Below, piece after piece: positions 1 to 34,070 of a stretch of DNA of 35,214 nucleotides; the stretch's first letter is position 1, and each line of letters begins with the position of its first letter. The notes under the pieces were generated by a model, which was not told the DNA's origin, did not search any database, and was given only the letters and a program-made list of their open reading frames with translations. This stretch comes from Bacteroidota bacterium (GTDB lineage: Bacteria > Bacteroidota > Ignavibacteria > UBA10030 > UBA6906), in assembly GCA_030835135.1 (NCBI GenBank), contig JAUQWO010000043.1, forward strand, positions 1-35,214, read 5' to 3'. The translations under genes and the position numbers were made by a program.

Positions 1-510
<510 letters not shown>

Positions 511-31405: not shown

Positions 31406-33718
31406 ATGGGTAAGAAACGATCGGGGCCGCTGTCCCCGGAAGACATGGACCGCTACTTCAACGATCCCGAATTCCGCCGCCAGCGCGGGAACAAGAATCC
31501 GGCCGGGCCACCACGCCGCTGGCTGCGCATGCTGCTGATCGTCGGGTTGCCCACGGCGATCATCCTCGGCGTCTATACCTGGTATCTGTTCTCCGGCCTC
31601 CCGGGCCTCGAGAAGATCGAGAACCCGCGGCCGGAGCTCTCCACGCGTGTCTTCTCCTCCGACGGCGAAGTGCTGGACCAGTTCTTCATCAAGAACCGGT
31701 CGCAGGTCGCGCTGAAGGACATCCCGATCACCATTCAGAACGCGCTCATCGCCACCGAGGACAAGGATTACTACAGTCACTGGGGCGTCGACGCGATACG
31801 CTTCATCAAGGCGATGATCAAGAATGCGCTCACGCTCTTCCGCCATCCGGAAGGCGCGAGCACCATCACCCAGCAGCTCGCCCGCAACCTGTACCTGGGG
31901 CACGACGACAAGAATGCGTTCGACACCGTCACGCGCAAGATCCGCGAGTTCATCACCTCCATCCAGCTCGAGCGGAACTTCACGAAAGAAGAGATCCTCG
32001 AGTTCTATCTGAACGTCGTGTATTTCGGCCGCGGCTCCTACGGCATCGCCTCGGCATCACAGCAGTACTTCGGGAAGACCATCCAGGAGTTGACCCTGCC
32101 GGAAACGGCGATGCTCATCGCCGTGGTCAAGGGACCGGCGTACTACGATCCGATCCGCCATCCGGAGCGCGCACTGGCACGCCGGAATGTCGTCCTGGGA
32201 CAGATGCTCAAGTACGACTACATCACCGAAGAGGAAGCAGAGCGCGCAAAAGCGGTCCCGATCCAGCTCAAGGCGACCGACGAGTACGCGCGCGCGGGGA
32301 TCGCGCCGCATTTCGTGGAGTATATCCGTCAGCAACTTTCCGAAAAGGCGGAGAAGTACGGCTTCGACATCTATCGCGATGGGCTGTCCGTGTACACCAC
32401 CCTCGACAGCCGGATGCAGCGCCACGCCAACCATGCGGTGGACGAACATCTGACCATCTACCAGGCGCTCTTCGACAAGGAATGGAACTGGTCCAGAGAA
32501 CGCGAGGCGCTCAGCTTCGTCATCGACCAGGCCATCCGTACGTCGGGCATGTACCGCAATGCCGGCACGGCGCGGGCGCGCGACAGCGTGTATCAGGCGC
32601 TCAAGGCGGACCGTCCCTGGCTGGACTCGATGATGCACGTCGCCCAGCAGATCGAGATCGGGTTCGTCGCGGTCGATCCGAGTTCCGGGGGCATCATCGC
32701 GATGGTCGGTGGCGCAAACTTCAAACAGTTCAAGTATGGCCTCAACCACGTCACCCAGATCCGCCGGCAGGTCGGTTCCGCGTTCAAGCCGTTCGTGTAC
32801 ACCGTCGCCATCGACAACGGGTACCCGCCGACCTTCGAGTTGTGGAACCAGCCGGTCACGATCTTCATGCCGGACGGCAAGCGATGGACGCCATCGAATT
32901 CGGACATGACCTTCGGCGGGAAGAGTACGATCCGCGAAGCGATCCGCATGTCCATCAACCTTGTGGCCGTCCGGGCGGTCCAGTCCATTGCTCCGATCAA
33001 CAAAGTGATCGACTACGCCAAACGGATGGGGATCACCTCGCCGCTGCCGCCGTACGAATCGCTCGCACTCGGCGCGGGCGAGGTGTCGCCGCTCGAAATG
33101 GCCTCTGCGTTCGGTGTGTATCCCAATCACGGCGTCTACGTCGAACCAACCTCCATCCTCCGCATCGAGGACAAGGACGGGAACGTGATCGAAGAGAACT
33201 TCCCGATGCAACGGGAGGTGCTGAGCGAAGAGACCGCGTTCCTGATGACCTCCATGCTCGAGGGGGTGGTGAACGGCGGTACCGGCAGTCACGTCCGCGA
33301 TTTCTTCCAGCTCCCGGCAGCCGGCAAGACGGGGACAACATCGGAGTTCGCCGATGCCTGGTTCGTGGGCTTCACCCCCCAGATCAGCGCCTCGGTGTGG
33401 GTCGGCTTCGACAACAAGAGCGTGCGGTTCAAGACATGGGACGGGCAGGGCGGACGTGCCGCGGCCCCGGTGTGGGGACGGTTCATGAAATACGTCTACG
33501 AGGACCCGGATATCGCGATGCCGCTGGAATACTTCCAACGGCCGGCAGGGGTGCTGCAGGAGACGATCTGCACGGAGACCAAGAAGCTCGCGACACAGTA
33601 CTGCCCGTCAACGACGACCGAGTTCTTCACCACGAAGGTGCTTCCGGGCCGGTGCGACAAGCATACGACGTCCAAGTGGAAAGAGGGGGAAGAAGGGCAG
33701 GGGACGATCAGTTTCTGA
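31406..33718 (+). CDS. class A penicillin-binding protein 1A (transglycosylase/transpeptidase)
   Basis: This bifunctional peptidoglycan synthase is anchored by one N-terminal helix (residues about 40-62). The GT51 glycosyltransferase domain (about 75-250) has the catalytic glutamate E118 in ATEDKDYYSHWGVD, and GASTITQQLARNLYL and FYLNVVYFGRGSYGI. The transpeptidase domain (about 415-680) has the nucleophile serine in GSAFKPF (S458, K461), SIN (S516) and KTG (K641). A 60-residue tail with three cysteines ends the protein. It is 770 residues, normal for PBP1A. The gene follows lpxH closely, and a hairpin terminator follows 60 bp later. Confidence 0.95.
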   Translation: MGKKRSGPLSPEDMDRYFNDPEFRRQRGNKNPAGPPRRWLRMLLIVGLPTAIILGVYTWYLFSGLPGLEKIENPRPELSTRVFSSDGEVLDQFFIKNRSQVALKDIPITIQNALIATEDKDYYSHWGVDAIRFIKAMIKNALTLFRHPEGASTITQQLARNLYLGHDDKNAFDTVTRKIREFITSIQLERNFTKEEILEFYLNVVYFGRGSYGIASASQQYFGKTIQELTLPETAMLIAVVKGPAYYDPIRHPERALARRNVVLGQMLKYDYITEEEAERAKAVPIQLKATDEYARAGIAPHFVEYIRQQLSEKAEKYGFDIYRDGLSVYTTLDSRMQRHANHAVDEHLTIYQALFDKEWNWSREREALSFVIDQAIRTSGMYRNAGTARARDSVYQALKADRPWLDSMMHVAQQIEIGFVAVDPSSGGIIAMVGGANFKQFKYGLNHVTQIRRQVGSAFKPFVYTVAIDNGYPPTFELWNQPVTIFMPDGKRWTPSNSDMTFGGKSTIREAIRMSINLVAVRAVQSIAPINKVIDYAKRMGITSPLPPYESLALGAGEVSPLEMASAFGVYPNHGVYVEPTSILRIEDKDGNVIEENFPMQREVLSEETAFLMTSMLEGVVNGGTGSHVRDFFQLPAAGKTGTTSEFADAWFVGFTPQISASVWVGFDNKSVRFKTWDGQGGRAAAPVWGRFMKYVYEDPDIAMPLEYFQRPAGVLQETICTETKKLATQYCPSTTTEFFTTKVLPGRCDKHTTSKWKEGEEGQGTISF

Positions 33719-33777: not shown

Positions 33778-33821
33778 GTGCAGAGCGGAGAGGCCGGACC
33801 TGCCCTCTCTGCGCTCTGCAC
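33778..33821 (-). terminator. hairpin terminator, probably of the small minus-strand gene
   Basis: GTGCAGAGCG pairs with CGCTCTGCAC (10 bp), and inside it GAGAGG pairs with CCTCTC, with a 2-nt bulge between. On the minus strand the stem is followed by TTCTGTTTT, fitting an intrinsic terminator. On the plus strand no T-run follows. It lies between the convergent ends of the penicillin-binding protein gene and the 49-residue ORF and might slow transcription from both sides. Confidence 0.6.
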
Positions 33822-33838: not shown

Positions 33839-33988
33839 TTATTGTTCTTTCAGTTCCCATTCAAAGATATCATTCGCGTCACCGGCAACCGGCATCACCG
33901 GCTTCTTCCGGTCCGCTTTGCTGTTCGCGATGATCAGGGGGATGGTGGCAACTGCGATAAGTGCGGCGACTGTCCAGATCTTCTTCAT
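33839..33988 (-). CDS. small membrane-anchored protein, 49 residues, function unknown
   Basis: The ORF reads MKKIWTVAALIAVATIPLII, then ANSKADRKKPVMPVAGDAND and IFEWELKEQ, with a TAA stop. It has one hydrophobic segment (residues about 4-21) behind two lysines, either a signal-anchor or an uncleaved signal, then a basic stretch and an acidic, aromatic tail. The Shine-Dalgarno AGGGGAGAGAG is 8-14 nt upstream of the ATG. A TATCTT -10 candidate (34033-34028) and a CRP-like palindrome lie upstream, and a hairpin terminator lies downstream, so it has all signals of a single-gene unit. I do not recognise the family. It is short enough to be missed by length-filtered gene calling. Confidence 0.7.
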   Translation of the reverse strand: MKKIWTVAALIAVATIPLIIANSKADRKKPVMPVAGDANDIFEWELKEQ

Positions 33989-34054
33989 GTTCGTTCTCTC
34001 TCCCCTGTTCGTTCAGGTGTTTAGTCCAAGATACTCATACAGACCCCCGACTGC

Positions 34055-34070
34055 TGTGACATCGGTCACA
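34055..34070. promoter_or_regulatory. CRP/FNR-family operator, perfect TGTGA-N6-TCACA
   Basis: TGTGACATCGGTCACA is a perfect inverted repeat that matches the E. coli CRP half-site consensus at all ten positions. It lies between divergent genes. For the minus-strand small gene, a TATCTT -10 at 34033-34028 would put initiation near 34021 and the operator centre at about -41.5, the classical class II activator position. For the plus-strand gene no good promoter is evident near it. The regulator itself is not encoded in the window. Confidence 0.65.

Follow-up and report, generated by a model that had tools for sequence, protein, structure and literature searches.

The window, by which we mean the whole stretch of 35,214 nucleotides analysed here, is a contig of a Bacteroidota bacterium of the Ignavibacteria. 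At the contig end, positions 1-510 (minus strand) carry the 5' portion of a 16S rRNA gene of bacterial type. Near the other end, a short open reading frame converges on a gene for a peptidoglycan synthase and is surrounded by the following features:

31406..33718, plus strand: PBP1A-type peptidoglycan synthase (Pfam Transgly and Transpeptidase domains), the convergent neighbour
33778..33821, minus strand: hairpin between the convergent genes, a probable terminator by predicted fold
33839..33988, minus strand: small membrane protein gene (49 aa), read from an ATG at 33988 to a stop codon that ends at 33839
33996..34006, minus strand: Shine-Dalgarno-like sequence AGGGGAGAGAG
34028..34033, minus strand: -10 hexamer TATCTT, separated from the Crp box by exactly 21 nt, with a predicted transcript start near 34021
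34055..34070, minus strand: Crp-type palindrome TGTGACCGATGTCACA, a putative class II activator site centred at -41.5
Parts of the 49-aa protein: a transmembrane helix at the N-terminus (about residues 4-21), basic residues next to the membrane, and the acidic motif GDANDIFEWEL at the C-terminus

The product of the small gene, MKKIWTVAALIAVATIPLIIANSKADRKKPVMPVAGDANDIFEWELKEQ, contains each of the parts described in the original prediction, which was made from the letters of the window: a two-lysine start, one helix, a run of basic residues and a tail that is acidic and aromatic. Residues 4-21 form its single hydrophobic stretch (mean Kyte-Doolittle 2.42), and in length it falls among the single-helix small membrane proteins of less than about 60 aa, with membrane insertion predicted. 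In all 29 aligned members of the family a single hydrophobic stretch lies close to the N-terminus, and the last 14 residues are strongly acidic (net -4 to -7). Among these sequences P17 and I41 are the only invariant positions and position 42 is F or Y, while the patterns of the helix and the tail persist. An AlphaFold2 prediction from nine sequences places helices at residues 2-27 and 40-48, with a mean pLDDT of 67.5 that makes it a weak, low-confidence model. We compared the family of the window genome (f1) with other families (f2 to f6). In f3 members an acidic extension precedes the helix and three to six K/R lie among the 12 residues that follow the helix, a pattern from which the positive-inside rule would place the C-terminus in the cytoplasm. 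Members from f1 are basic on both sides of the helix, more so after it, and those from f2 have few basic residues after it, so that the topology is one that we infer; the C-terminus is probably cytoplasmic, with weak charge evidence in f1 and f2.

No Pfam or NCBIfam family scored above its curated cut-off for the 49-aa protein (its orthologues give sub-threshold hits only), no relative was found in the PDB, and a literature search returned no description of this small protein. Profiles of TatA/TatE, Synerg-CTERM and LPXTG-type anchors gave weak matches below threshold (E 0.03 or worse), which involve a short helix with basic residues, and composition alone is what these have in common with the small protein.

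Homologues were searched for with a single sequence first, which gave strong matches throughout f1, and then with profiles to extend the set. The original prediction had staked itself on homologues in close relatives and on frames free of disruption, with a bias to synonymous substitution, and on both counts it holds: orthologues occur in 21/21 genomes of f1, 5/5 of f2 and 13/15 of f3, their frames are intact, and profile E-values reach 1e-24. Profile searches found no orthologue in f4 (3 genomes) or f6, and f5 gave weak hits only (E about 1e-4), at a different locus and of doubtful homology. The f5 look-alikes (L117, L118, L119) are similar small membrane ORFs that may be distant relatives of the small gene, and in two of the three the ORF is convergent with a pyruvate-kinase-like gene. 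Phylum-wide sampling yielded no convincing member outside the order, and the named relatives are Ignavibacteriae/Bacteroidetes MAGs. Matches of RmlB type in other families (E 0.3-0.9) lie within 340-aa dTDP-glucose dehydratases and were discarded as chance. A few genomes carry paralogues of the small gene (G004b, G015b, G020b; L085, L096, L101), which sit away from PBP1A and do not have the box.

Pairwise counts within genera gave a dN/dS below 0.3 in every measurable pair (G001/G002 0.23; g7 0.09-0.29; g11 0.06; g9 0.12; g15 0.17), with zero non-synonymous changes in g19; these samples are small (40-51 codons) and the results agree among themselves. Between the window gene and its two congeners synonymous sites are saturated (dN 0.19-0.28), and hence no ratio is given. 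Because many unrelated ORFs of 30-100 aa share the same stretch, length alone is not significant. What places this ORF beyond chance, as had been claimed from its signals, is the combination of intact orthologous frames, low dN/dS, fixed synteny and fixed spacing between the box and the -10 hexamer. Judged from these comparisons, 33839-33988 on the minus strand is a real protein-coding gene under purifying selection, and its product represents an uncatalogued family, new as a family, of predicted single-pass inner-membrane proteins of 43-54 aa. The earlier description of an uncatalogued, regulated small membrane protein is thus borne out by the lack of a Pfam or NCBIfam family and by the conservation of both gene and operator.

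The expression signals fared unequally. The strong Shine-Dalgarno sequence that had been reported is present as AGGGGAGAGAG, and G-rich stretches occupy the equivalent site in many orthologues. Of the claimed terminator, the 16-bp hairpin stands (-34.7 kcal/mol, z = -3.05, with 1/200 shuffles as good), but its T tail, TTCTGTTTT, is poor, and the hairpin is not listed by a consensus terminator scan. It is also only partly conserved: several f1 genomes have a hairpin of unrelated sequence, and most f2 and f3 genomes have none.

The CRP-like operator and -10 element proved stronger than first claimed. We scored the best TGTGANNNNNNTCACA match within 150 bp upstream, jointly with a -10 whose distance from it was fixed at 21 nt, against dinucleotide shuffles; the score exceeds the shuffles by 19.5 sd in f1 and by 13.4 sd in f3, where the motif and the -10 pattern were chosen on the same sequences as were scored and the statistics ignore relatedness. 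Orthologues from f2 have no recognisable box (z 1.5), and Crp control is therefore not universal. In a spacing test, the best box was picked alone and spacers of 10 to 34 nt were then scanned for TANNNT, which occurs at exactly 21 nt in 22/26 scoreable orthologues from two families and at other spacings in 0-2. The palindrome at small-gene promoters is of the TGTG-N7-TCAC type, with several box halves degenerate. Since the sequence of the spacer between the box and the -10 is not conserved between genera, shared ancestry does not simply account for the whole stretch, and the box stays whichever gene is upstream. We rejected its assignment to the divergent URO-D gene, as the box and the 21-nt spacing persist where another gene lies upstream. 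A TATATT just 5' of the box, listed by a promoter scan, was not preferred; only close relatives have the two side by side, and in G003 they lie apart.

With the -10 hexamer at -12 to -7, a gap of 21 nt puts the core of the palindrome at -49 to -34. The promoter thus apparently has canonical class II Crp geometry, centred at -41.5, with a presumed Crp-type activator; this centre is the usual class II CRP position (PMC2859248). Class II CRP promoters of E. coli share both the centre and a site of the TGTGA-N6-TCACA type; the half-sites here, in contrast, vary (TGTGC, GGTGA, AGTGA), the host is a relative of Ignavibacteria, and the activator and start are predicted.

The window genome encodes a Crp-type regulator (cNMP_binding + HTH_Crp_2, at G000:C60) that is 89-99% identical within f1 and about 78-81% identical in f2 and f3; f4-f6 have it too, and the search missed it in two draft genomes. 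Its recognition helix, TSRETISRM, presumably resembles that of E. coli CRP, and we take its GEM...RSA segment to resemble the cAMP pocket. There are three class III cyclase genes in the same genome. A second regulator, FNR-like as read from translations, adjoins nitric-oxide-related genes. A 2021 study described CRP/FNR homologues in Ignavibacteria MAGs (MalR-like and Flp-like), predicted to sense carbon availability, and, using matrices borrowed from Bacteroides MalR, found mostly hypothetical targets (PMC8510549). The regulator considered here belongs to the same CRP/FNR family; unlike theirs, the motif here comes from orthologous promoters.

To sample the regulon we used a strict pattern search, which returned 54 matches in 21 f1 genomes (reversed control, 9) and 18 in 10 f3 genomes (reversed control, 3); at least four of the f1 hits are coding sequence. 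No other box-bearing target in f1 recurred as often in these strict scans as the small gene, which was hit in 17/21 genomes and accounts for five of the f3 matches. Its f1 co-members include a DegT aminotransferase (G003, G010, G016), a polyprenyl sugar transferase and response regulators. Genes that share the promoter type are mostly surface-polysaccharide/envelope and regulator genes, not respiratory ones, which lends no support to the respiratory or stress role once suggested for the protein; the list is suggestive and does not amount to a defined regulon. Another five f3 matches, in 5/10 genomes, precede a fusion of HTH_17 with a response regulator (L186, L189, L190, L195, L199). The same promoter type was seen at L160 (f1) and L197 (f3), which are pilin-like by impression and have no Pfam match. 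Recurring TGTGAGTGAATTCACA...TGGTATGTT matches were rejected as promoters, being coding sequence in an ORF of more than 830 codons judged IleS-like.

We consider it the best explanation, with a probability of roughly 0.6, that the small gene encodes a Crp-activated, membrane-anchored adaptor, which crosses the inner membrane once and binds, through a cytoplasmic acidic tail, a partner belonging to the envelope or surface machinery. Activation of the promoter would come from a regulator of the Crp type, probably cAMP-dependent, acting at the box at -41.5, which overlaps the -35 region. The N-terminal helix would then anchor the protein in the inner membrane, the basic residues that come next would probably hold the C-terminus in the cytoplasm, and the acidic motif, D-x-x-[DN]-I-F-x-x-E-L, would dock on its partner, for which PBP1A and the polysaccharide machinery are candidates. 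The identity of the activator, the topology, the docking role and the envelope function are all what we infer from sequence. A broader version, in which the protein is a widely conserved output of an Ignavibacteria cAMP-Crp regulon and ties carbon or energy state to the envelope through binding of the tail to PBP1A or surface-polysaccharide machinery, is a tentative extension that we regard as doubtful.

Synteny makes it possible that the small protein acts on PBP1A. The two genes are convergent in all orthologues of f1, f2 and f3 whose contigs extend to PBP1A, and the PBP1A side is fixed, unlike the upstream neighbour, which is URO-D-like in g1, g2 and g9, a response regulator in f3 and something else elsewhere. 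Both products are inner-membrane proteins, and the small protein might thus be a dedicated PBP1A regulator that meets the synthase in the membrane and tunes it when Crp is active. We nevertheless find this unlikely, and action on the neighbouring synthase, one of the roles first proposed, finds little favour in the comparison. Convergent genes are not co-transcribed as an operon would be, the paralogues lie elsewhere, and f4, f5 and f6 keep PBP1A with the small gene not beside it (some contigs there are short). The adjacency may also be inherited block order, because the genes from NusB to PBP1A keep their order as well. A motif in the cytoplasmic N-terminus of PBP1A, YFNDPEYRR (like MERYFNDPEYRR), is conserved in most f1 genomes, but it also occurs in f5, f6 and G100 and is absent from f2, f3 and f4, and so does not track the small gene.

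Small accessory membrane proteins are often placed under conditional regulation, and the size and single helix of the 49-aa product would suit a subunit that, like CydX or AcrZ, assists a respiratory complex or a transporter. AcrZ itself is such a conditionally regulated protein (PMC7267776). We judge this quite unlikely for the gene described here, which matches no Pfam or NCBIfam model and has no PDB relative, has no respiratory or transporter gene as a fixed neighbour, and shares its promoter type mostly with envelope and regulator genes. The product is also small and hydrophobic and apparently under a global regulator, and YohP (PMC12719787) offers a precedent for a membrane-active stress peptide, which would alter the state of the membrane with no specific partner; the soluble tail motif, however, is conserved across families, which suggests a specific contact instead of a bulk membrane effect and makes such a peptide highly improbable. 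Finally, although chance readily produces ORFs as short as this one, the idea that it is such an ORF within regulatory or terminator sequence, or that the locus is a non-coding RNA, can practically be dismissed given the selection on intact frames described above and the absence of any Rfam match at 33839-33988.

The protein that we favour, a Crp-activated membrane protein with a docking tail, resembles AcrZ, CydX and YohP in having fewer than 60 aa, one hydrophobic helix and conditional regulation. No sequence relationship to any of the three was found, and it differs from them in its conserved acidic C-terminal motif and, in the genomes compared here, in being confined to one order. It adds a family that is uncatalogued and has no name in current models. 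With its promoter, bacteria of the Ignavibacteria type would gain a motif of their own through which to approach Crp regulation, for which the earlier study had borrowed matrices (PMC8510549). If the partner of the tail is indeed an envelope enzyme, the small protein would provide a route from a global metabolic regulator to the cell surface in a little-studied lineage.
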